From: Patescibacteria group bacterium
Lineage (GTDB): Bacteria > Patescibacteria > Microgenomatia > Levybacterales > UBA12049
Reading direction: 5' to 3'
Length of the DNA: 24,806 nt
Assembly (NCBI GenBank): GCA_023379465.1
Contig: JAMCTM010000033.1
Span: 1 to 24,806, forward strand
The position numbers and the translations under genes are program-made. How positions within the stretch are numbered: position 1 is the stretch's first letter; every line of letters starts with the position of its first letter. The notes beneath the pieces were generated by a model. It was given only the letters and a program-made list of their open reading frames with translations, was not told the origin of the DNA and searched no databases. Shown piece by piece: positions 2,363 through 13,210 of the stretch.

Positions 2363-2391
2363 AAAAAAAACTTCTACAAAAACATAGAAGT
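2363..2391 (-). terminator. Riboswitch-controlled intrinsic terminator
   Basis: The stem ACTTCTA/TAGAAGT has an 8-nt loop and is followed by eight T residues on the minus strand, just before the dynamin-like gene. Its 5' arm is also the 3' strand of the fluoride aptamer pseudoknot, so the two structures exclude each other. Confidence 0.8.
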
Positions 2392-2431
2392 CATTAGCAA
2401 TATAAGCCTTAAAAAGCGAACTTCATCGCTT
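2363..2431 (-). promoter_or_regulatory. Fluoride riboswitch (crcB motif) with terminator platform
   Basis: On the minus strand the aptamer begins AAGCGATGAAGTTCGCTT (2431-2414) and ends GCTAATGACTTCTA. This matches the known crcB motif layout of a GGCGATGGAGTTCGCC-type hairpin followed by GCTAATGACTCCTAC. The loop GAAGT pairs with ACTTC to make the pseudoknot. The same ACTTCTA is the 5' arm of a terminator stem (2385-2391 with 2370-2376) followed by a T-run, so fluoride binding should prevent termination and turn the dynamin gene on. Confidence 0.9.
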
Positions 2432-2432
2432 A

Positions 2433-2466
2433 TTGTATTTTACAGCTTAATATATGATAAAATCAA
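2433..2466. promoter_or_regulatory. Interlocked bidirectional promoter, copy A
   Basis: Minus direction: -35 TTGATT (2466-2461), 18-bp spacer, -10 TAAAAT (2442-2437), giving a start near 2430, at the aptamer's first base. Plus direction: -10 TAAAAT at 2458-2463 with a weak -35 TTGTAT at 2433-2438, giving a start near 2470. Each -10 overlaps the opposing -35, so polymerase can occupy only one direction at a time. Confidence 0.6.
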
Positions 2467-2472
2467 TCTAAG

Positions 2473-2530
2473 AGTGATGAAGCTCACCTAATTGTTCCTA
2501 TGAACTGACAGCTTCTACGACTGTAGGAGC
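2473..2530 (+). promoter_or_regulatory. Fluoride riboswitch (crcB motif) with RBS-sequestering platform
   Basis: The aptamer has the hairpin GTGATGAAGCTCAC (2474-2487), a short GTTC/GAAC stem, then CTGACAGCTTCTAC (2505-2518). The loop GAAGC is complementary to GCTTC, as the crcB pseudoknot requires. The same GCTTCTAC can pair with GTAGGAGC (2523-2530), which contains the AGGAG ribosome-binding site of the next gene. There is no T-run, so control is probably translational: fluoride frees the RBS. Confidence 0.88.
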
Positions 2531-2531
2531 C

Positions 2532-3356
2532 ATGTTTGATAAACAGAAAATCATAGACTACACGGAGGATAAACATCTAAAAGACGGGGGTTATTTTTTC
2601 GCTAAAGTCGAACCTTCTAGCGGTCTTGATACCTATTACGCTGTAAAAATCCTCAAAATGCTAGGAATGAAACCGCAAGACCCTTTGGGAGTAAAAAGAT
2701 TTTTCCTCGATATGGAAGCTTCAGAAGGAATTGACGATATTACGGGACTGTATCTTAATCTAGAAACACTAAAAGAGATTGGATACGATTTAACTCGTTT
2801 TAGATGCTATGAATCTATCGTTAAAGAAACACAAAATAGACATGGGGGATTTGGAACTGTTGGCGAACTCTATGTCGAGATTGCTTCAGAACTTGAAACA
2901 ACCTATAGAGCTGTTGTAATTTCAAACGATTTAAATTGCTCTCTAGATAAAAATTCTCTTGTTGAGTTTATTTTTTCTTTTCAAAATAAAGATGGAGGTT
3001 TCGGAAGTAAAGGACTTTCTCTTCTTTCAACAACTTACTACGCTCTTTCAATACTTCAAGAACTTGGTGAACGGAAAAAAATTGCAAAAATTCCGAATTT
3101 TTTATTGGATATAGAAAGAAGCAATTTTTTTAACTTTTACTTAGAAGATATATTTTGGTTAACAGAAAGTTTACAACTCCTTAAACAAAAACCAAGAGAT
3201 ACAAAAACGATAATATCCTTTTTAGAGATGTGCATCCGGATTGACGGCGGATTTTCTCGTTCAATAAACTTGGGAATTTCAACACTTGAGGATACATATT
3301 ATGCAGTAACAATTCTTAAGAGATTGGAAGAATACGGAATACAAGAATTTGTCTAA
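2532..3356 (+). CDS. Prenyltransferase/squalene-cyclase repeat protein under a fluoride riboswitch
   Basis: This 274-residue protein has repeated Gly-rich turns typical of alpha/alpha-barrel terpenoid proteins: DGGYFF at 18-23, HGGFG at 104-108, DGGFG at 154-158 and DGGFS at 238-242. The last two, and the first, are followed by a D/S-T-Y-Y-A helix. This repeat occurs in protein prenyltransferase beta subunits and squalene-hopene cyclases. The usual DxDD cyclase motif and a clear zinc site are not visible, so enzymatic activity is uncertain and it may only be a binding barrel. The ATG follows AGGAG by just 2 nt, a short spacing, but no other in-frame start fits. It sits directly behind a fluoride riboswitch, and a small membrane-protein gene follows 11 bp later, probably co-transcribed. 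Confidence 0.75.
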   Translation: MFDKQKIIDYTEDKHLKDGGYFFAKVEPSSGLDTYYAVKILKMLGMKPQDPLGVKRFFLDMEASEGIDDITGLYLNLETLKEIGYDLTRFRCYESIVKETQNRHGGFGTVGELYVEIASELETTYRAVVISNDLNCSLDKNSLVEFIFSFQNKDGGFGSKGLSLLSTTYYALSILQELGERKKIAKIPNFLLDIERSNFFNFYLEDIFWLTESLQLLKQKPRDTKTIISFLEMCIRIDGGFSRSINLGISTLEDTYYAVTILKRLEEYGIQEFV

Positions 3357-3367
3357 AATCGGTAATT

Positions 3368-3598
3368 ATGAAAGAACAGCTTTTGATTTATTTTTGGAAA
3401 TTTTTTCTTCCTGCCGAAAAAATTGAAGAAAAGAAAAAAGAACTTTTAATTAAAAAGATTAAGTATCACGTTGAACACACATCGGGAGGAGGAATATTCT
3501 TTACGTTTTGGGAAAAGATAAAAATTCTTGGCTTTGTCGGTTTTTTAATTCTTATAAGTTTTTCAATATTTTTCTTATTAGCTTTTGTATCAAAATAA
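3368..3598 (+). CDS. Small single-pass membrane protein
   Basis: The 76-residue protein has a basic, charged N-terminal half (EEKKKELLIKKIKYHVEH) and one strong C-terminal membrane helix at about 53-73 (ILGFVGFLILISFSIFFLLAF). I recognise no family. It starts 11 bp after the prenyltransferase-repeat gene and is probably in the same fluoride-riboswitch operon. It ends 2 bp before the convergent 152-aa gene. Its composition resembles a C-tail anchored protein, and it could hold the partner protein at the membrane, which is inference. Confidence 0.6.
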   Translation: MKEQLLIYFWKFFLPAEKIEEKKKELLIKKIKYHVEHTSGGGIFFTFWEKIKILGFVGFLILISFSIFFLLAFVSK

Positions 3599-4075: not shown

Positions 4076-4297
4076 TTAATTTATAATTCTACTTAAATTC
4101 TGAATAAATTTCTGCTGGTTGTTAATTAGTTCATCAGTTTTAAAATTCCTAAGCTCTCTAACTGCCTGAGCTGATAACTTTTTTAAAGTTTGGTCATTTT
4201 CCAATACATCTTCGTCAACTTCAAGAGCTGTTTTATTTATACCTAACAACTTTAGACTTGAAAGAGAACGTATGCGTGAGAGTGCAACATAACTCAT
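4076..4297 (-). pseudogene. C-terminal fragment of PIF1/RecD-like helicase
   Basis: The 73 residues align along their whole length with the C-terminus of the complete helicase at 6080-7408. They share MxYVALSRxRSLSS, then DQTL and ELRN, with about 38 of the first 53 positions identical by eye. The Walker A, Walker B and QLPP motifs are all missing, so it cannot be an active helicase. The similarity begins exactly at the ATG. The upstream in-frame sequence has a stop within six codons and no likeness to helicase. The ATG overlaps the stop of the preceding 35-aa frame (ATGA), so it may be translated by coupling. A leftover of a duplication is most likely; a kept small domain is possible. Confidence 0.65.
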
Positions 4298-4777: not shown

Positions 4778-6073
4778 TTAGAAGTTTCTGAAGCTAGACA
4801 GACCCGTTCCGTAATTAGTTTTTCCCACAAGCATTCTTTCGATTCGCATCAGTCTGTTATATTTCGCCACCCGTTCAGACCTTGCCGGAGCGCCGGTTTT
4901 CATTTGTCCGATACCCATCGCAACCGTAAAGTCCGCAATAAAAGTGTCCTCAGTCTCTCCGCTTCTATGGGAAACAACAGATGTCATGTTATTTTTTCTG
5001 GCAAGTAATACCGCATCAATCGTTTCGGTTAAAGTTCCTATTTGATTTAACTTTATTAAAACAGAGTTCGTAGTTTTATTATCAATACCTCTTTGGATTC
5101 GTTTTACATTGGTGACATACAAATCATCTCCGACAATTTGGAGTTTATCTCCGAAGGAAGCCGTAAATTTTCCAAAAGCATTCCAGTCGTCTTCGGCGAA
5201 GATATCTTCCATAGAGATAATCGGGTATTTTGAGGCAAGGTTTTGGAAAAAGCCTGAAAGATCGTCGCTTGTTACTGTTTTTCCTTCCTTGGTAAGGTTA
5301 TATTTTCCGTCAACAAAAAATTCCGAAGCAGCAGGGTCAATTCCGAACGAAATGTCTCCTCCGAGTTTGTATCCGGCTTTTTGGATAGCTTCTGATAAAA
5401 GCTCGAAAGGTTCTTCGTTTGAAGAAACTTTTGGAGCAAAACCTCCTTCATCTCCAACGGTTATGGCATAACCTTTTTCCTTAATTATGCCTTTTAATAT
5501 CTGATAAACCTCCGCATTCATTCTGATTGCTTCAACCACAGATTTGGCTCCGATAGGGAAAAGCATGTATTCTTGAATATCGGTTGCCCAATTTGCGTGT
5601 TTTCCACCATTCATCACATTCATTTCGGGGATTGGCATAATGTAAGTTCCGTTAAAATCTGGGTTAAATTTAGTGAGGTATTCATAGAGTTCTTTCTTTT
5701 CTGATGCGCTTTCAGCTCTGGCAGCACTTAAAGAAACAGAAAGAATTGCATTTGCCCCAAGATTAGCTTTATTTTCAGTTCCGTCTAATTCAATCATGGT
5801 CTGATCAAGTTTATTTTGATCTTGAGCGTCTAATCCAATAACTGCTTGGGAAATCTTAGAATTGACGTTTTCAACGGCTTTTAGCACTCCTAAACCGTTA
5901 TATCTGCTCTTGTCTCCATCTCTAATTTCTACAGCCTCGTACTTACCTGTGGAGGCACCAGAGGGTATTGCATCCCATCCTTTTGATCCGTCTTCAAGCA
6001 CGGTTACAGCCTCAATTGTCGGGTTGCCGCGGCTATCTAAAATTTCTTGCGCTTGAACTGATTTAATTTTCAT
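4778..6073 (-). CDS. eno: Enolase (phosphopyruvate hydratase)
   Basis: At 431 residues this is full-length enolase, which interconverts 2-phosphoglycerate and phosphoenolpyruvate in glycolysis. The hallmarks are SGASTGKYEAVE near 38-49, the substrate loop MNGGKHA, the catalytic base region GDEGGFAPK, the metal ligand region SMEDIF, DDLYVTN, the catalytic lysine in LIKLNQIGT, and the signature SHRSGETED. It is the last gene of the operon that starts with pyrophosphatase behind a fluoride riboswitch, and it begins 6 bp after the helicase gene. Enolase is strongly inhibited by fluoride with phosphate and Mg2+, so a place in this operon makes sense: extra enzyme offsets inhibition. An additional internal promoter is likely for so central a gene but is not evident. 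Confidence 0.98.
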   Translation of the reverse strand: MKIKSVQAQEILDSRGNPTIEAVTVLEDGSKGWDAIPSGASTGKYEAVEIRDGDKSRYNGLGVLKAVENVNSKISQAVIGLDAQDQNKLDQTMIELDGTENKANLGANAILSVSLSAARAESASEKKELYEYLTKFNPDFNGTYIMPIPEMNVMNGGKHANWATDIQEYMLFPIGAKSVVEAIRMNAEVYQILKGIIKEKGYAITVGDEGGFAPKVSSNEEPFELLSEAIQKAGYKLGGDISFGIDPAASEFFVDGKYNLTKEGKTVTSDDLSGFFQNLASKYPIISMEDIFAEDDWNAFGKFTASFGDKLQIVGDDLYVTNVKRIQRGIDNKTTNSVLIKLNQIGTLTETIDAVLLARKNNMTSVVSHRSGETEDTFIADFTVAMGIGQMKTGAPARSERVAKYNRLMRIERMLVGKTNYGTGLSSFRNF

Positions 6074-6079
6074 ATTATT

Positions 6080-7408
6080 TTAATTATACATAACTTGTCT
6101 TAGGTTTTCGATGAATTCTTTTTGTTTATCTAATCTATCTTGTGGTTTTAAATTTCTTAATTCGATTAGCGCTTGGGTTGATAAATTTCTAAGAGTTTGA
6201 TCGGATTCCAAGACGGTTTCGTCCACCTGAAGTGCTATTTTATTAACTCCCATAAGCTTCATGCTCGAAAGGCTTCTGACTCTGGATAAGGCCACATATC
6301 CCATTCCGTGAGCAAATGACTTGCTTAAATCAATTTCTGCTAAATCAAGGCTCATGCCTTGAGATTTATGAATGGTAATTGCCCATGCCAAACGCAAAGG
6401 AACCTGGCTAATTTCGGCTTTTAGAACATCTTTTTCTTCGATTTTCCAACTCGCGGGTTTTGCGACTGCTTTAAGACCGGAGGTTGTTTTAACAACAGGG
6501 AATCCTTCCTCGTCAAATCCAATTATTTTACCAAGAGTTCCGTTAACATATCCTTGATTAAAGTTATTTTTAACAAACATAACTAAAGCTCCTTTTTTAA
6601 GAATCAGTTTTTCTGGAGCAAGACAGCCTTTTTTAAGATTGTCAACCAGAGTTTGCTCTCCCCAGGACGTCATTTCGTAAGCTCTTGACTCCTCTTTTAT
6701 TTTATCAAGCTCGAAATAATTAAGGCCATCTACGTCAACGTTATGCGTGTAAAGTTTGGTCGGAGTGATTTTCGCTTCAAGCTTTTTATTCAGTCTTGAC
6801 ATTAAAAGTCTTAAGGATTCAACAGAAACGTCATTTTGTCTTATTTCGTTCAGTATCTGTAAAAATCTTGAGTCTTCCTGCCTATATTGTTCTTCAAGGT
6901 AACAAATTTTTACATCCATTTCCTGCCAGGATTGCGATTTATCTACAAAACTGTTATCATCACTGTTTTTGCTTACAGGCGGGAGCTGGAAAAAATCTCC
7001 GCACAAAATTACTTGCAATCCGCCAAAAGGAGCATCGCTATTTTTGAATACTTTGCAAATCTTATTTACCATATCAAGCCTTGATGCCTGAAGCATGGAA
7101 ATCTCATCAATAACTAGCACCTTGGTATTTGCAAATCTTTCTTGCAAATAAGGTTTAAGAAGGATATTACTGATATCATCGTCTTCAAGTTTATCCTTTA
7201 TTCCGATACCCGACCATGAATGAATAGTTAGACCGTCTAGATGCGTAGCGGCAATTCCGGTTGAGGCTGTAACTCCAACTTCAACGCCATTTTTTTGTAA
7301 ATACCCAATATACTCATTAAGAAGGTAAGTTTTTCCGCTTCCCGCAGCACCCGTAAGGTAGACATTATAGCCCAATTTTAGAATATCGAAAGCCTCTTCT
7401 TGTGTCAT
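6080..7408 (-). CDS. PIF1/RecD-like superfamily 1B DNA helicase
   Basis: This 442-residue ATP-dependent helicase has Walker A GAAGSGKT at 20-27, Walker B DEIS at 101-104, the motif III-type GDFFQLPP at 137-144, and C-terminal motifs TIHKSQG and YVALSR typical of PIF1 and RecD2 proteins. PIF1-type helicases unwind 5' to 3', including G-quadruplex and R-loop substrates. It is shorter than eukaryotic PIF1 and is close to a minimal bacterial form. It sits in the pyrophosphatase-enolase operon, with gaps of 3 and 6 bp to its neighbours. A copy of its last 73 residues lies 1.8 kb downstream. Confidence 0.9.
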   Translation of the reverse strand: MTQEEAFDILKLGYNVYLTGAAGSGKTYLLNEYIGYLQKNGVEVGVTASTGIAATHLDGLTIHSWSGIGIKDKLEDDDISNILLKPYLQERFANTKVLVIDEISMLQASRLDMVNKICKVFKNSDAPFGGLQVILCGDFFQLPPVSKNSDDNSFVDKSQSWQEMDVKICYLEEQYRQEDSRFLQILNEIRQNDVSVESLRLLMSRLNKKLEAKITPTKLYTHNVDVDGLNYFELDKIKEESRAYEMTSWGEQTLVDNLKKGCLAPEKLILKKGALVMFVKNNFNQGYVNGTLGKIIGFDEEGFPVVKTTSGLKAVAKPASWKIEEKDVLKAEISQVPLRLAWAITIHKSQGMSLDLAEIDLSKSFAHGMGYVALSRVRSLSSMKLMGVNKIALQVDETVLESDQTLRNLSTQALIELRNLKPQDRLDKQKEFIENLRQVMYN

Positions 7409-7411
7409 TTT

Positions 7412-7918
7412 TCATTTTATCCCGTATTTTTCTTTGTATCTTCTGACTGCTTCGGAAAGCGGGGGAACGTTATATTTTGCGCGTTCCTCATCCGTTGTTG
7501 TTTCGTCGACAGTTTCCAACTCAGGTTCACCATTCCTGTTGGTCCTAAATTGCGTTCCGTATTTTTGCGGTTTGCCAATTGACAGTAAATATCTGTCCAT
7601 TGTGGCAGCAAAAAGCCATTTTGCACTTTCATCACCCTTTTCTACCGCCTTCTTGGCAAATTCATGTGCAAGGGCAAAGTCTTCAATAGTCTCTCCGTGC
7701 TGAAGTATATATGCGCCATGATGGTAATCAAGGCCCGTTTTAATCGAATCTAAATCCCTTAGGAATAAAACCGCTTCTTTCCTTTTTTTGTCTCGTCTTT
7801 TAAGCCATGAAACATCCTTGATCGTGGCGAACTCCCAGTTTTTACTGGCTCTGTCTTCAACATCTTCTTTGTAGAAATGCTGAAGGATTGAAGATGTGTT
7901 TTGAACCTTGATAGACAT
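7412..7918 (-). CDS. DUF6624-like hypothetical protein
   Basis: The 168-residue soluble protein carries the pattern HHGAYILQHGETIEDFALAH, then DRYLLSIGKPQKYGTQF and a closing acidic segment before PPLSEAVRRYKEKYG. The His-rich LQHG, the DRxL and GKPQxYGTQ motifs resemble the DUF6624 family as I remember it; its function is unknown. It begins 6 bp after the preceding gene and ends 3 bp before the helicase gene, so it is translated as part of the fluoride-linked operon. No membrane segment or signal is present. Confidence 0.6.
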   Translation of the reverse strand: MSIKVQNTSSILQHFYKEDVEDRASKNWEFATIKDVSWLKRRDKKRKEAVLFLRDLDSIKTGLDYHHGAYILQHGETIEDFALAHEFAKKAVEKGDESAKWLFAATMDRYLLSIGKPQKYGTQFRTNRNGEPELETVDETTTDEERAKYNVPPLSEAVRRYKEKYGIK

Positions 7919-7924
7919 AAATGA

Positions 7925-8275
7925 TTAAGGTTTTGAATATTCAAGAAACAACCTTTCCTTATCCTTTTGAAGCAGTCTTCTTTGCTCTTCTATATTTCTT
8001 AAAACCTGCTGAAGTTCCGGTTTCTGGCTGAAGTCAATAGTATTATTGATTTTTGACCATTGCTGAATAAGTTGTCTGTCGCGATTTTCAATAGCCTGTT
8101 CTATCAGTTGAAACTGAGTGTGCTTGCTAAAGGTATGCCATTCTTCAAAAGTAGCAAGAAATTCGGGATTATATTCTCCTATTTCTATTGCCTTTTGAAG
8201 AGTCATTAGTTGCCCGCCGAAAGATGGTTTTGTGCCCGGTGGAATTATTTCTATTTCATTAGGATCGCTTGCCAT
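7925..8275 (-). CDS. Hypothetical helical protein
   Basis: This protein of 116 residues starts at ATG 8275 (MASDPNEIEIIPPGTKPSFG). A TTG start at 8299 would add eight residues, but ATG is preferred because the extension lacks a better ribosome site. The first 35 residues are proline- and glycine-rich. The rest is helical and charged, ending in a coiled-coil-like run (VLRNIEEQRRLLQKDKERL). I recognise no family. It is 45 bp downstream of the VIT-like gene, the widest gap in the operon, so a weak internal promoter cannot be excluded. Confidence 0.55.
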   Translation of the reverse strand: MASDPNEIEIIPPGTKPSFGGQLMTLQKAIEIGEYNPEFLATFEEWHTFSKHTQFQLIEQAIENRDRQLIQQWSKINNTIDFSQKPELQQVLRNIEEQRRLLQKDKERLFLEYSKP

Positions 8276-8320
8276 ATTCAAAATTGTAACTTTCTGCAAC
8301 CAAAATTTATTATTATCTAT

Positions 8321-8863
8321 TTACACTATGTGTAACACTGCGCCAACAACAGATAGTCCTATTCCTACTGATATAAGGCCTATTGTCCAACGAAAAACAT
8401 TTGCATAGATAATCCTTGCAATGACAAGACCCAAAAGCCCAAGAGTTGTAAGGGATACGGCAATAGAAAGTCCAGTTATGTTCGGGAAAAGTATATTTGT
8501 AGAAAGGGGTATAAGGGCACCTATAAAACCAAATATACAACTGATACCCATGCCGACAGATACTTCAACGAAGACTGTTTTGCCAAGGGAAGTTGTTGCA
8601 AACTTCCCGTGCGATACGATATTGAGTTGTTTTTCGGCGTTAATAAGTTCTCGTCGAAGCTGTACATATTCCGCTATGAAATAAATGAAAGAACTAGCTA
8701 CGGCCGTAACAGCAGCGATGCGAAATGCCAGAGAATAATCTAATATTCCTCCTTCAATTATTTTTCCGGAGGTCAACGTTAATGCGGTTAAAACTCCGTC
8801 AACAACACCCAGCAACAGGGCAAATAATTGTTTACCAAGAATAAAATTAACAAAATTTTTCAT
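8321..8863 (-). CDS. VIT/CCC1-like integral membrane protein
   Basis: This membrane protein of 180 residues has about five helices. The N-terminal helix contains DGVLTALTLTSG, matching the DGxxxxxxxxxG feature of vacuolar iron transporter (VIT1/CCC1) relatives. It is followed by an AEYVQLRRELINAEKQL segment like the cytosolic loop after the second helix in that family. VIT proteins move Fe2+ or Mn2+ out of the cytosol by proton exchange. It overlaps the DUF211 gene by 4 bp (ATGA), so the two are probably translationally coupled. Archaeal relatives of both are small conserved proteins of unknown role. Its place behind a fluoride riboswitch suggests export of a metal or a metal-fluoride species, which is inference. 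Confidence 0.72.
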   Translation of the reverse strand: MKNFVNFILGKQLFALLLGVVDGVLTALTLTSGKIIEGGILDYSLAFRIAAVTAVASSFIYFIAEYVQLRRELINAEKQLNIVSHGKFATTSLGKTVFVEVSVGMGISCIFGFIGALIPLSTNILFPNITGLSIAVSLTTLGLLGLVIARIIYANVFRWTIGLISVGIGLSVVGAVLHIV

Positions 8864-9144
8864 CGCGCTTGCTTTACCGGAGTAATTATTCGCTCTCCGG
8901 CACCTAATTGGTCAATACTATGTACGACAGCACCGGAATTTTCAATCGCAGTTTGTATTTTGCCATAATCAAGATTTTGCCCTTCAATTGTAATATTCAT
9001 GTCAACCGTTTCTACATCTATTTCAGCAACTTCAATATTGAATCCTTCTACACCTTTGACATTAGAAATTGCTTCGCCAATTTCCAGTAAGGAAGGGCGC
9101 TGAAGTGCTTTATCAACATCTAGTAAGAGTCTTCTAATATTCAT
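8860..9144 (-). CDS. DUF211 family protein
   Basis: The 94-residue protein reads MNIRRLLLDVDKALQRPSLL at the start, with GVEGFNIEVAEIDVETVDMN and ITIEGQNLDYGKIQTAIENS following and a GAVVHSID motif near 71-78. This is the pattern of DUF211 (COG1888), a ferredoxin-like small domain known mostly from archaea. The fold resembles ACT-like regulatory or metal-sensing domains, and its role is unproven. A GAGG ribosome site lies inside the last codons of pyrophosphatase, 8 bp before this ORF. Its stop overlaps the start of the VIT-like gene, so the two likely work together, perhaps as sensor and transporter. Confidence 0.78.
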   Translation of the reverse strand: MNIRRLLLDVDKALQRPSLLEIGEAISNVKGVEGFNIEVAEIDVETVDMNITIEGQNLDYGKIQTAIENSGAVVHSIDQLGAGERIITPVKQAR

Positions 9145-9152
9145 AATTGAGG

Positions 9153-9677
9153 TTACCTCTTTTCAGATACATAACGGTCCTGGCCTTCCTTAATAATCCT
9201 GTATGCCTCTTCTTTTTCCAGCCACCCGTTTATTTTTGCCCATTTACCTTCAAGCTTTTTGTATTCTTCGAAGAAGTGAACTATTTCTTTCTTATAATGT
9301 TCATCAATATCATTCACGTTTTGAATATTGCTGAGCTTAGGATCTTTCTCTACAACTCCTAAAATTTTATAATCCTTCCCCGCGTTATCTTCCATATCCA
9401 AAGCGCCGACAACTCTAACCCTTACGACACAACCTGGGAAAAGAGGATCGGTAACAAACACCAATACGTCCAAATGGTCTCCGTCCTCGGCCCTTGTATG
9501 GGGCACAAACCCATAATCCGTAGGGTAAAAAACCGGAGAATGCAAAACTCTGTCAAGTCTTATCTCATCCAGGACTTCGTCAAACTCATACTTGTGATGT
9601 GAACCTTTAGGAATTTCGACAACGGCATTTATAATTTGCGGTGCTTTGTCTCCAAGCGGTATTTTTTCGTATGACAT
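9153..9677 (-). CDS. ppa: Inorganic pyrophosphatase (family I)
   Basis: This soluble pyrophosphatase has 174 residues and hydrolyses PPi to drive biosynthesis. Family features are the NAVVEIPKGSHHKYEFDE opening, VFYPTDYGFVPHT, and the metal-binding DGDHLDVLV, where the usual Pro or Glu of the signature is His but all three Asp are kept. LDMEDNAGKDYKI and the C-terminal FFEEYKKLEGKW complete the fold. The start is ATG 9677, with AGGAG 7 nt upstream. A longer frame to 9725 exists but runs through the riboswitch. Family I pyrophosphatases are inhibited by fluoride, which fits its place as first gene behind a fluoride riboswitch and head of a seven-gene operon ending in enolase. Confidence 0.97.
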   Translation of the reverse strand: MSYEKIPLGDKAPQIINAVVEIPKGSHHKYEFDEVLDEIRLDRVLHSPVFYPTDYGFVPHTRAEDGDHLDVLVFVTDPLFPGCVVRVRVVGALDMEDNAGKDYKILGVVEKDPKLSNIQNVNDIDEHYKKEIVHFFEEYKKLEGKWAKINGWLEKEEAYRIIKEGQDRYVSEKR

Positions 9678-9747
9678 AAAAAAACTCCTATCAAGTTTGA
9701 CAGAAGCCATTAGCTTTCGAGGCAATTAGAAGCGAGCTTCATCGCTT
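9678..9747 (-). promoter_or_regulatory. Fluoride riboswitch (crcB motif) upstream of ppa
   Basis: On the minus strand the aptamer starts AAGCGATGAAGCTCGCTT (9747-9730) and ends AAGCTAATGGCTTCTG. Loop GAAGC is complementary to GCTTC. The same GCTTCTGTC (9707-9699) can pair with GATAGGAGT (9692-9684), which contains the AGGAG site of ppa and is followed by six more T residues. The platform could therefore act on both transcription and translation; fluoride should switch it on. Confidence 0.92.
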
Positions 9748-9753
9748 AATTTT

Positions 9754-9783
9754 ATTTTACATCCTATTATGTGTTAAAATCAA
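9754..9783. promoter_or_regulatory. Interlocked bidirectional promoter, copy B
   Basis: Minus direction: -35 TTGATT (9783-9778), 18-bp spacer, -10 TAAAAT (9759-9754), start near 9747, the first base of the aptamer. Plus direction: -10 TAAAAT (9775-9780), start near 9788, again the first base of the aptamer; its -35 is weak. The layout matches copy A base for base in spacing. Confidence 0.6.
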
Positions 9784-9787
9784 GTGT

Positions 9788-9839
9788 AAGTGATGGAGTT
9801 CACTCAAAACCGCATTCTTTGCTGATAACTTCTAAAAGT
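9788..9839 (+). promoter_or_regulatory. Fluoride riboswitch (crcB motif) upstream of 71-aa gene
   Basis: The aptamer has AGTGATGGAGTTCACT (9789-9804), the AAACCGC joining strand, a short GCA/TGC stem and GCTGATAACTTCTA (9821-9834). These match the crcB consensus closely. Loop GGAGT pairs with ACTTC with one G-U. The platform is less clear: ACTT-ctaa-AAGT (9828-9839) may form just before the ATG at 9845, and no Shine-Dalgarno site is visible. Confidence 0.88.
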
Positions 9840-9844
9840 CTACA

Positions 9845-10060
9845 ATGAACAATCTATCTTTATATTTGCTTTTAGGAACAATGTTCGGATTTCTTGGAGG
9901 ATTGGCTGCTTTTTTGATAACCTACGAGGAATACCAGCATCATTTCGTTGATAAAGGAAAGGCTTTAAACCATAGTATTGAAACCGGAGTTTTCGCATTC
10001 ATTGTTTTCTTAGGTATTTCTTTGGCGGTTGGGTTGCTTTTTACCTACATCAAATTTTAA
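9845..10060 (+). CDS. Small two-helix membrane protein under a fluoride riboswitch
   Basis: The 71-residue protein has two membrane helices, about 5-26 (rich in Gly: LLLGTMFGFLGGLAAFLITY) and 48-69 (VFAFIVFLGISLAVGLLFTY), joined by a polar loop EEYQHHFVDKGKALNHSIET. It is not CrcB/Fluc, which has about 120 residues, four helices and a GxxxGAxxRY start. I recognise no family. The glycine-packed first helix and small size are compatible with an oligomeric channel or a partner protein. It is the only gene behind its riboswitch, so it is the clearest candidate here for a direct role in fluoride handling. That role is inferred from regulation alone. Confidence 0.8.
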   Translation: MNNLSLYLLLGTMFGFLGGLAAFLITYEEYQHHFVDKGKALNHSIETGVFAFIVFLGISLAVGLLFTYIKF

Positions 10061-11631: not shown

Positions 11632-13191
11632 ATGTTTGAGGATAGTTTGCAAACGAAAAAAGCGGTTATTTACCTTAGGGTTTCTTCGGAAGAACAGGTT
11701 GAGAATTTTTCTCTGGATACTCAGGAGGAAATTTGCCGTCGGGAAGCACAAAGACGCCAGTACGAAATTCTTGAAGTTTTCAGGGAAGAAGGACGGTCAG
11801 CAAAAAATATCACAGGAAGGCCGGTTTTGATTAAGCTTTTGGAATTTTGTCGAAAGAACCAAAGAACTGTTAACGCGGTATTTGTATATAGACTGGATAG
11901 GCTTTCCGGGCAAACTGTAGATTATCTTGCAATCAGAAAGAGACTTACGGAATACGGTATTACTTTAATATCCGCAACCGAGCCGACGGGAAACAGTCCG
12001 ACTGAAAAACTAATTGAGACAATGCTTGCCGGATTTGCCCAGATGGATAATGATGTAAGAAGCGAAAGGTCAAGAAATGGATTAAGGGCAAGATTTCTAT
12101 CGGGGCTATGTATCGCTAAAGTGCCAATTGGATATCAAATAAAAGAAGGTTTCGCGGTTAAAGATGAGGCAACTTTTGACAAAATGAAAAAAGCGTGGGA
12201 TTTAATGCTAACCGGAACTAAAAGCTTGTCCGAAATGGCTGAAATAATGAACGGTTGGGGGCATCGAAAGTTTGTTTTCAATAAGGAATACAAATTAAGA
12301 GGACAAACGGTAGATAGACTATTCCGCAATAAGTTTTATGCTGGTATTCTTACTTCTTCAACATACCCTGAGGAAATAAGGGGGCGACATACGCCGATGG
12401 TTACCGAAGAACAGTTTTACAGAGTTCAGGCAATTATCGACGCGCGAAATCGATCCGGAACTGCTCCGGCAAAAAGGCTTAAAGATAATCCGGATTTTCC
12501 ACTTCGTGGCACAATTAAATGCGGAAGATGCGGAGGAAATTTGTCCGGAGGATGGAGTAAGGGCAGGTCTAAAAAATACGCCTATTATATTTGTAAGAAT
12601 CGCTGCGGTGCGCCGTCAATTAAAGTTCAAGTGTTGAATGACTCATTAATAAGTTTCCTTCATGATATTTCTCCGACAAAACAACAGTTGGAAGTCTTTA
12701 TCATGGTGCTAAAGATGAGATTTAATCAAAACATTACCCTTCTTAGAACAAAAAGAGAAAGGGCCGAACAGGAAATAGAGGAGCAGGATAAACTGCTACA
12801 AACTTTAATAGAGAAAAATCTTAAGGGTACCTATGCTGATGATGAATTCATAAAACAAATAATTATTATTAAAAATAAAATTGAGGCTATGAAAGAAGTT
12901 CTTAATGCTTCATTGTTTGATAAATATTCGCTTGATGACATTGTTATCTTTATGAGAGCCAAGTTCAAAGATCTGGGCAAAACCTACCTGGATGCTGAAC
13001 CTGGCGTGCGTAGAGTACTTCTTGGTTCGATATGTCCCGATGGGTTGTCTTGGCGCTACGACGGCCTATCGAATCGCGAGTTTAGCCCACAATTTCAAAC
13101 TATTCTTGATTCAAAAAACGAAGATTTTGCGTTGAGTACCGCGGAGGGGAGTCGAACCCCTGATTCCAGGGATGAAAACCCTGTGTCCTAG
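11632..13191 (+). CDS. Large serine recombinase (integrase)
   Basis: The 519-residue recombinase has an N-terminal resolvase domain with the catalytic serine at 18 in YLRVSSEEQ, conserved arginines in YRLDRLS, and the long helix AGFAQMDNDVRSERSRNGLR. A recombinase domain follows, then a zinc ribbon with CGRCGG and a second Cys pair near CKNRCG, and a coiled coil at about 370-425. These are hallmarks of phage- and element-type integrases that act at attP and attB. The frame enters the antisense strand of tRNA-Glu, which supplies its last 18 residues and the stop codon. The element has probably inserted at this tRNA, so the native C-terminus may differ in the excised form. Confidence 0.93.
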   Translation: MFEDSLQTKKAVIYLRVSSEEQVENFSLDTQEEICRREAQRRQYEILEVFREEGRSAKNITGRPVLIKLLEFCRKNQRTVNAVFVYRLDRLSGQTVDYLAIRKRLTEYGITLISATEPTGNSPTEKLIETMLAGFAQMDNDVRSERSRNGLRARFLSGLCIAKVPIGYQIKEGFAVKDEATFDKMKKAWDLMLTGTKSLSEMAEIMNGWGHRKFVFNKEYKLRGQTVDRLFRNKFYAGILTSSTYPEEIRGRHTPMVTEEQFYRVQAIIDARNRSGTAPAKRLKDNPDFPLRGTIKCGRCGGNLSGGWSKGRSKKYAYYICKNRCGAPSIKVQVLNDSLISFLHDISPTKQQLEVFIMVLKMRFNQNITLLRTKRERAEQEIEEQDKLLQTLIEKNLKGTYADDEFIKQIIIIKNKIEAMKEVLNASLFDKYSLDDIVIFMRAKFKDLGKTYLDAEPGVRRVLLGSICPDGLSWRYDGLSNREFSPQFQTILDSKNEDFALSTAEGSRTPDSRDENPVS

Positions 13192-13210
13192 GCCACTAGA
13201 CGACCGCGGC
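13137..13210 (-). tRNA. tRNA-Glu (anticodon TTC)
   Basis: The acceptor arms GCCGCGG and CCGCGGT pair with one G-U, and the discriminator is A. The anticodon stem CAGGG/CCCTG encloses the loop TTTTCAT, giving anticodon TTC. The T-arm is CAGGGGTTCGACTCCCC-like. CCA is not encoded. The 3' half is overlapped by the recombinase reading frame on the other strand, which points to use as an integration site. Confidence 0.95.

Follow-up and report, generated by a model that had tools for sequence, protein, structure and literature searches.

Back-to-back fluoride riboswitch aptamers in a Patescibacteria genome and the regulon they probably control

Why should two fluoride riboswitches stand back to back between a pyrophosphatase gene and the gene for a 71-residue membrane protein in a member of the Patescibacteria? 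The question arises at positions 9678-9844 of the window, by which we mean the whole 24,806-nucleotide stretch of DNA analysed here. This region is bounded by two start codons (that of ppa at 9677 and that of the 71-aa gene, here tm71, at 9845), and the initial annotation had read it as a second divergent pair of fluoride riboswitches, built like another at 2359-2531. We scanned the whole window with cmscan against Rfam 15, where the gathering score of the fluoride riboswitch family RF01734 is 34 bits. Both aptamers of the 9678-9844 region scored above this curated cut-off, which bears out the second pair. The one heading tm71 lies at 9780-9841 on the plus strand (42.5 bits, E 8e-9), with its P1 stem at 9789-9792/9801-9804 and a pseudoknot of 9795-9800 with 9827-9832 (GGAGUU/AACUUC); the one heading ppa lies at 9694-9755 on the minus strand (34.8 bits, E 2.6e-6), with a pseudoknot of 9740-9735 with 9708-9703 (GAAGCU/GGCUUC).

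The pair at 2359-2531 did not reach the cut-off. The aptamer heading a dynamin-like GTPase gene (2378-2439, minus strand; pseudoknot GAAGUU/GACUUC) fell just under it with 32.2 bits (E 1.8e-5), and the divergent aptamer heading the gene for an alpha-alpha toroid protein (2464-2524, plus strand; pseudoknot GAAGCU/AGCUUC) fell far under it with 19.6 bits (E 0.24). These two are probably divergent relatives of RF01734 rather than formal members; of the four fluoride riboswitches originally proposed, the two at 9678-9844 are secure and the two at 2359-2531 are retained as probable. The geometry of the two pairs is the same, as had been suggested from their outward-facing design: within each, the RF01734 matches are separated by 24 nt and the P1 stems by exactly 40 bp.

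How common are such aptamers in this genome and its relatives? The nearest available genome, G001, has 92% of sampled words in common with the window. A covariance search of that genome returned the same four aptamers with the same scores and three further matches at 8.5-10 bits, so that no fifth credible copy was found there, and a dedicated fluoride regulon, as first surmised, is likely. In a sample of 40 relatives, RF01734 exceeded the cut-off in one, G001. At E 1e-5 or better, matches were found in at least three of 373 genomes of the class sample and at least four of 379 of the phylum sample, two samples that share genomes. These counts are lower bounds, because the large scans filter more strictly and miss the aptamer of the relative G050, which scored 24.4 bits when its locus was searched alone and gave no match in either large scan.

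We aligned 12 aptamers, comprising the window's four, three from the relative G301 and one each from G050, G384, G494, G615 and G625. Across P1 and the pseudoknot, 98.3% of the 120 cells held standard pairs and both sides had changed in five of the ten pairs; neither value was reached in any of 500 shuffles, and slid controls of the alignment were 40-58% paired. For the pseudoknot alone, 98.6% of cells were paired in the 12 sequences, with both sides changed in three of six pairs. The count of further pair types was no higher than chance (419 of 500 shuffles were as high). Overall, the six-base-pair pseudoknot, in which the P1 loop pairs with the 3' strand, covaries across these 12 aptamers of the phylum. 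One of its pairs, columns 21-54, is U-G in eight aptamers, U-A in three and unpaired in one; within the window, the wobble occurs in the two arms with a hairpin and U-run (ppa and dynamin), and U-A in both plus arms. The columns that we take to be the ligand-site and linchpin positions A6, U7, U38, A40 and U48 are invariant in all 12 aptamers, and the column taken in the same way as U41 is U in 11 and C in the toroid arm. The A40-U48 linchpin of the fluoride riboswitch is named in PMC11077080.

Can these aptamers act as switches? Each leader was folded with 45 nt of downstream sequence, and folds with the downstream letters shuffled 200 times served as controls. In nine of the 12 leaders, the 3' strand of the pseudoknot paired downstream with a mean probability of at least 0.89. 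Lower values were obtained for the G494 leader (0.60; 34 of 200 shuffles as high), the tm71 arm (0.54; 16 of 200) and a single leader at locus L120 of G301 (0.45; 87 of 200). In the ppa arm (0.89; 7 of 200), this strand is predicted to enter a hairpin at 9683-9708 on the minus strand, followed by a U-run, which was picked up by the terminator scan and holds an AGGAG motif (9689-9685) close to the start codon at 9677. In the dynamin arm (0.97; 0 of 200), the folds predict a terminator hairpin that is built from the 3' pseudoknot strand and lies at 2369-2392 on the minus strand, again followed by a U-run; it is absent from the terminator-scan list. For the toroid arm (0.91; 8 of 200), both folding and the scan point to a hairpin, GCUUCUAC/GUAGGAGC, at 2511-2530 on the plus strand over the Shine-Dalgarno sequence of the toroid gene. 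Terminator-like sites numbered two in the 9678-9844 region (0.3 expected) and two in the 2359-2531 region (0.1 expected); of the two in each region, a platform hairpin accounts for one and the opposite strand of the minus aptamer's P1 for the other. No clear Shine-Dalgarno sequence is seen in the tm71 arm, whose best fold joins the 5' half of the aptamer to the start region (-18.2 kcal/mol, z -2.43, a stability that 4 of 200 shuffles reached). We predict a mutually exclusive platform in the ppa, dynamin and toroid arms, with the hairpin taking the 3' pseudoknot strand. Without fluoride, this strand would be taken by a hairpin that terminates transcription, hides the ribosome-binding site, or both. 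The platform of the tm71 arm is less clear; there, the 5' half of the aptamer probably pairs over the start region. All four leaders are predicted to be, and are consistent with, ON switches.

The low score of the toroid arm, with an E value of 0.24 and C in place of a conserved U, would also suit a smaller regulon, in which only the tm71, ppa and dynamin arms hold functional aptamers and the toroid arm is a decayed relic. We consider this quite unlikely, given that this weakest of the aptamers can still form six Watson-Crick pseudoknot pairs and a hairpin over the Shine-Dalgarno sequence, that its promoter centre resembles the sequence upstream of the single G301 L120 leader (32 of 37 positions identical), and that toroid homologues stand behind aptamers in G494 and G615. 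The preferred reading keeps four arms.

The 40-bp centres between the P1 stems, at 9748-9787 in the 9678-9844 pair (pair 2) and at 2432-2471 in the 2359-2531 pair (pair 1), appear to hold overlapping divergent promoters. On the minus strand, the promoter scan found TTGATT-18-TAAAAT in both, with 9 of 12 consensus matches each (TTGATT at 9783-9778 and TAAAAT at 9759-9754 in pair 2; 2466-2461 and 2442-2437 in pair 1). It found no plus-strand promoter in either centre; the plus-strand elements are extended -10 motifs read by eye, TGT-TAAAAT at 9772-9780 and TGA-TAAAAT at 2455-2463. The scan also lists a minus-strand TTAACA-17-TAAAAT from 9777 to 9749 (10 of 12) and a TTATCA-17-TACAAT (9 of 12), both of which would place transcript starts inside P1. 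In total, promoter-like sites numbered four in pair 2, against 0.8 expected, and three in pair 1, against 1.3. We dropped an alternative reading of TATTAT as a single symmetric -10 common to both directions, because TAAAAT elements lie at matching distances from both aptamers in both pairs. Judged by eye from the -10 elements, about 38-40 bp separate the predicted divergent start sites, which in pair 2 would fall near 9787 on the plus strand and near 9747 on the minus strand, and with divergent promoters in the 40-bp centre each transcript would start at or near its own aptamer.

Did the two pairs arise from one? Aligned over their whole length, the two intergenic regions scored 53.5 in the same orientation and 29.5 when one was flipped, against at most 11.5 in 500 shuffles; part of the score of 53.5 is explained by the aptamer constraint common to both regions. 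The promoter centres are identical at 31 of 38 positions in the same orientation (gapped score 22.0, reached by none of 2000 shuffles) and score 13.0 when flipped (reached by 27 of 2000). An ungapped comparison of the centres gave 17 of 44, within the range of shuffles (mean 14.8, sd 2.9, maximum 27), and is low because of a one-base offset. The first genes of the four arms belong to different families. As far as sequence can tell, duplication of a single divergent unit is the most likely origin of the two, and the genes are not duplicates; the suggestion that the regulon was built by duplication thus holds for the intergenic unit and fails for the genes.

Alternatively, the two divergent pairs could have been assembled independently, from pre-existing single leaders set back to back. 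Single leaders do occur in relatives, before ppa in G301 and G050 and at G301 L120. The L120 leader, for which no minus partner was detected, has a plus-type promoter that is identical with pair 2 at 29 of 36 positions in addition to its match with pair 1; promoters of this type thus also occur apart from divergent pairs, and the plus-type promoter of either pair is as similar to that of G301 as to that of the other pair. Moreover, in pairwise aptamer scores the minus arms stand out (22.0) and the plus arms do not (9.0 with each other, against 10.0 and 13.5 with the minus arms of the other pair), and each centre is partly palindromic, with self scores of 14.0 and 11.0 that 19 and 17 of 2000 shuffles reached. 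However, independent assembly has to contend with the identical 40-bp spacing, with the centres aligning better in the same orientation than flipped, and with the quartet sites of the four window aptamers, of which six group the arms by side, three support the flipped arrangement and one groups them within pairs. Because columns 12/23 (two of the six) and 20/55 (two of the three) covary, 5:2:1 is a fairer count than 6:3:1. We regard independent assembly as somewhat unlikely and prefer duplication of a single divergent unit.

Which genes would these units control? On the minus strand of the 9678-9844 region, the inorganic pyrophosphatase gene ppa (9153-9677; PF00719, E 1.4e-55) opens a series of seven frames on one strand with gaps of at most 21 nt, in agreement with the earlier view that one arm heads an operon beginning with pyrophosphatase. 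The frames that follow encode a DUF211 protein (8860-9144; PF02680), a VIT1-like/TIGR00267-like membrane protein (8321-8863; TIGR00267 at 39.4 bits against a cut-off of 156.95, and PF01988 at E 0.026, under cut-off), a 124-aa product without an NCBIfam match (7925-8299), a 168-aa DUF6624-like protein (7412-7918; 26.9 bits, cut-off 27), a PIF1-like helicase (6080-7408; PF05970) and, 6 nt further on, enolase (4778-6073; PF00113/PF03952), the last gene of the predicted operon. Judging from spacing only, ppa to enolase would be co-transcribed. The DUF211 and VIT1/TIGR00267-like genes (8321-9144) overlap by 4 bp within this predicted operon, and a metal link of the pair to the fluoride response is possible. 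Behind enolase, a 73-aa frame (4076-4297, minus strand) is 59.7% identical to residues 369-440 of the PIF1-like helicase and resembles a partial local duplicate of it.

The plus arm of the same region leads to tm71 (9845-10060), whose product is a two-helix membrane protein. The start at 9845 gives an N-terminus similar in length to those of its homologues; a 59-aa start at 9881, as in the database cluster P0001, was dropped because the homologues keep the longer N-terminus. In the 2359-2531 region, the minus arm leads to the gene for the dynamin-like GTPase (634-2358, 574 aa; PF00350, E 1.6e-29; NCBIfam DynA at 82 bits, under cut-off), and the plus arm to that for a prenyltransferase-like alpha-alpha toroid protein (2532-3356, 274 aa; PF00432), followed on the plus strand by an open reading frame for a 76-aa protein (3368-3598). 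By eye, a frame resembling the latter lies directly behind the aptamer at G301 L120. Elsewhere in the window, a 519-aa frame on the plus strand (11632-13191) has, by eye, the look of a serine recombinase, and its 3' end overlaps a tRNA gene on the other strand (13137-13210); this region is possibly an integrated element.

Several of these genes recur behind fluoride aptamers in relatives. G301 carries the order aptamer-ppa-tm71 twice in locus L121 (1031-1841 and 5381-6192, a distance of about 4.4 kb, with 54 of 63 positions identical between the two aptamers) and G050 carries it once; in all three loci, tm71 begins immediately behind the stop codon of ppa. In G615, an aptamer is followed by a toroid fragment and tm71, and in G494 by a toroid gene and the gene for a 74-aa membrane protein, whose homology with tm71 was not supported (hhalign probability 3.4%). 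In G384, an aptamer precedes crcB and then a small protein; G625 has an aptamer with a gene that looks MFS-like by eye and with two crcB genes. G140 has toroid and tm71 genes in a row, and its dynamin gene lies on the other strand; no aptamer was found in its leader with Rfam or our own model, and by eye its toroid gene is preceded by a hairpin like the 3' end of an aptamer and by a U-run. Similarly, neither Rfam nor our own model detected an aptamer at the ppa relatives L036-L038, three of 80 ppa loci, among which the close relative L037 comes from a Candidatus Woesebacteria genome. G140, a genome of the same class, encodes a protein identical throughout its alignment to one recorded for a Candidatus Gottesmanbacteria bacterium, which together with L037 suggests that the host belongs to the Patescibacteria (CPR).

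To put numbers on this recurrence, toroid model A3 matched three of 379 phylum genomes (G001, G494 and G615), each with an RF01734 match in front of the gene (19.6, 49.2 and 30 bits, two of them under the cut-off). As the model was built from two of its three matched genomes, the same comparison without the model-building genomes leaves G615 as the lone toroid genome, among at least three aptamer genomes (G615, G625 and G050) of 377. The wider toroid model A5 matched two of 187 class genomes (G001 and G140) and, in the class of G494, one of 16, namely G494 itself. For tm71, model A2 matched 11 of 373 class genomes at 12 loci at E 1e-3 or better. Of these loci, eight give strong matches, at E 1e-13 or better. 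Among the eight, four, including that of G001, have an aptamer upstream, G140 has a toroid neighbour, and L130, L131 and L132 have neither aptamer nor toroid. By eye, the relative at L130 has a thioredoxin-like protein and a permease as neighbours, that at L131 lies behind an ABC transporter and that at L132 between restriction-modification-like genes, with no aptamer detected at any of the three. Since strong tm71 relatives occur in such unrelated contexts, the tm71 family is not only a fluoride family.

These contexts would agree with a reading in which the aptamers are real, ppa and enolase alone matter for fluoride, and tm71, the toroid gene and the dynamin gene are incidental neighbours, all the more as the association counts for tm71 and toroid are not independent, the search models having been built partly from aptamer-linked members. 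Incidental placement does not sit well, however, with a toroid family that stands behind an RF01734 match in each of its three phylum genomes, or with a tm71 gene that comes directly after ppa in three aptamer-led loci and after a toroid fragment, likewise behind an aptamer, in a fourth. We judge it unlikely and continue to count tm71, toroid and dynamin as cargo of the switches.

Fluc/CrcB and CLC-F are the usual partner genes of fluoride riboswitches; does the regulon include one? CrcB (PF02537) was found in none of 30 relatives searched, G001 included, and CLC (PF00654) was not found in G001, the one genome searched for it in this set. As CrcB was missing from all of these nearby genomes anyway, its absence from G001 alone says little. 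Among eight genomes chosen for aptamers or cargo, PF02537 occurred in two, G384 and G625, and PF00654 in none of the seven other than G001. Genome by genome, the pattern "CrcB or tm71/toroid" is suggestive in these eight, chosen as they were for aptamer or cargo and with G494 and G625 outside the tm71 search. Reading exporter absence from G001, we probably have a fluoride regulon without a recognised exporter. Fluc and CLC-F are the two types of fluoride exporter that a review names for bacteria (PMC11139923).

Could tm71 itself fill this role? AlphaFold models it, from 11 sequences, as a helical hairpin (mean pLDDT 93.2). It matched no family over the cut-off in Pfam and NCBIfam searches and gave no PF02537 match up to E 0.1; a fold search gave no match at E 0.001 or better, a search that a two-helix hairpin makes uninformative. 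The toroid model, from 17 sequences (mean pLDDT 91.2), has 6o60_B as its top Foldseek match (E 1e-6, TM-score 0.76 by query length), and the modelled fold is nearest to the beta subunits of protein prenyltransferases. Neither predicted structure points to a fluoride function. That tm71 is a new, oligomeric, riboswitch-induced fluoride exporter, with the toroid and dynamin-like proteins as accessories, in Patescibacteria without CrcB and CLC-F, is a speculation to which we give little credence; if it were true, the back-to-back switches would allow a single short promoter region to drive the fluoride response in both directions.

From the observed aptamers, their covarying pseudoknot, the common geometry and the recurrent cargo, we infer how the leaders switch, which promoters they use, how far the operon extends and what the cargo does. 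We think it likely that each intergenic region works as a control unit that responds to fluoride in both directions and that the two units, probably duplicated, form one fluoride regulon. Two overlapping divergent promoters would sit in the 40 bp between the aptamers of each unit. Bound fluoride would lock the aptamer pseudoknot; without fluoride, the downstream hairpin of the ppa, dynamin and toroid arms would take the 3' pseudoknot strand and terminate transcription, cover the ribosome-binding site, or both, and in the tm71 arm the 5' half of the aptamer would probably pair over the start region instead. The regulon would comprise ppa, probably enolase, tm71, the toroid protein, the dynamin-like GTPase and a few others. 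Pyrophosphatase and enolase are known fluoride targets. Those of its members that are found again behind fluoride aptamers in distant relatives make up a short list of candidate fluoride-resistance genes. In addition, natural riboswitch-promoter modules from Patescibacteria could serve as inducible parts, a use proposed for riboswitches in this group of bacteria (PMC11665869).

The riboswitch class is already known; the back-to-back layout and the cargo are probably new versions of it. Our literature search found no work on fluoride riboswitches in the candidate phyla radiation, no account of two divergently transcribed riboswitch aptamers and no link between a fluoride riboswitch and a prenyltransferase; the cargo may already be listed elsewhere. 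The window's leaders have the aptamer fold and six-pair pseudoknot of the crcB motif RF01734, and in the ppa, dynamin and toroid arms the 3' strand of the pseudoknot is predicted to be used also by the hairpin at a terminator or ribosome-binding site, as in that motif. PMC11077080 describes the switching logic predicted here for transcriptional fluoride riboswitches, translational ones are known as well (PMC13273304), and the genes reported downstream are highly varied (PMC7266159). Unlike the usual RF01734 locus, the window has four copies in two back-to-back pairs with predicted overlapping promoters, one arm (tm71) whose platform is less clear, and cargo without CrcB or CLC in G001. As in bidirectional promoters, divergent transcription in the window would issue from one short AT-rich region. 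In bidirectional promoters with a near-symmetric -10, start sites lie 7-25 bp apart by definition (PMC10268837); with predicted starts outside this range, those of the window are better called overlapping divergent promoters. Pyrophosphatase and enolase are described as frequently associated with fluoride riboswitches in PMC11139923, and to such known ppa/enolase fluoride operons the window adds tm71, the toroid protein, the dynamin-like GTPase, DUF211 and the VIT1-like protein. Of these, tm71 is, like Fluc/CrcB, a small helical membrane protein, but it has two helices rather than four and no PF02537 match, and the toroid protein shares the alpha-alpha toroid fold of prenyltransferase beta subunits and squalene cyclase in the form of a small single-domain bacterial protein.
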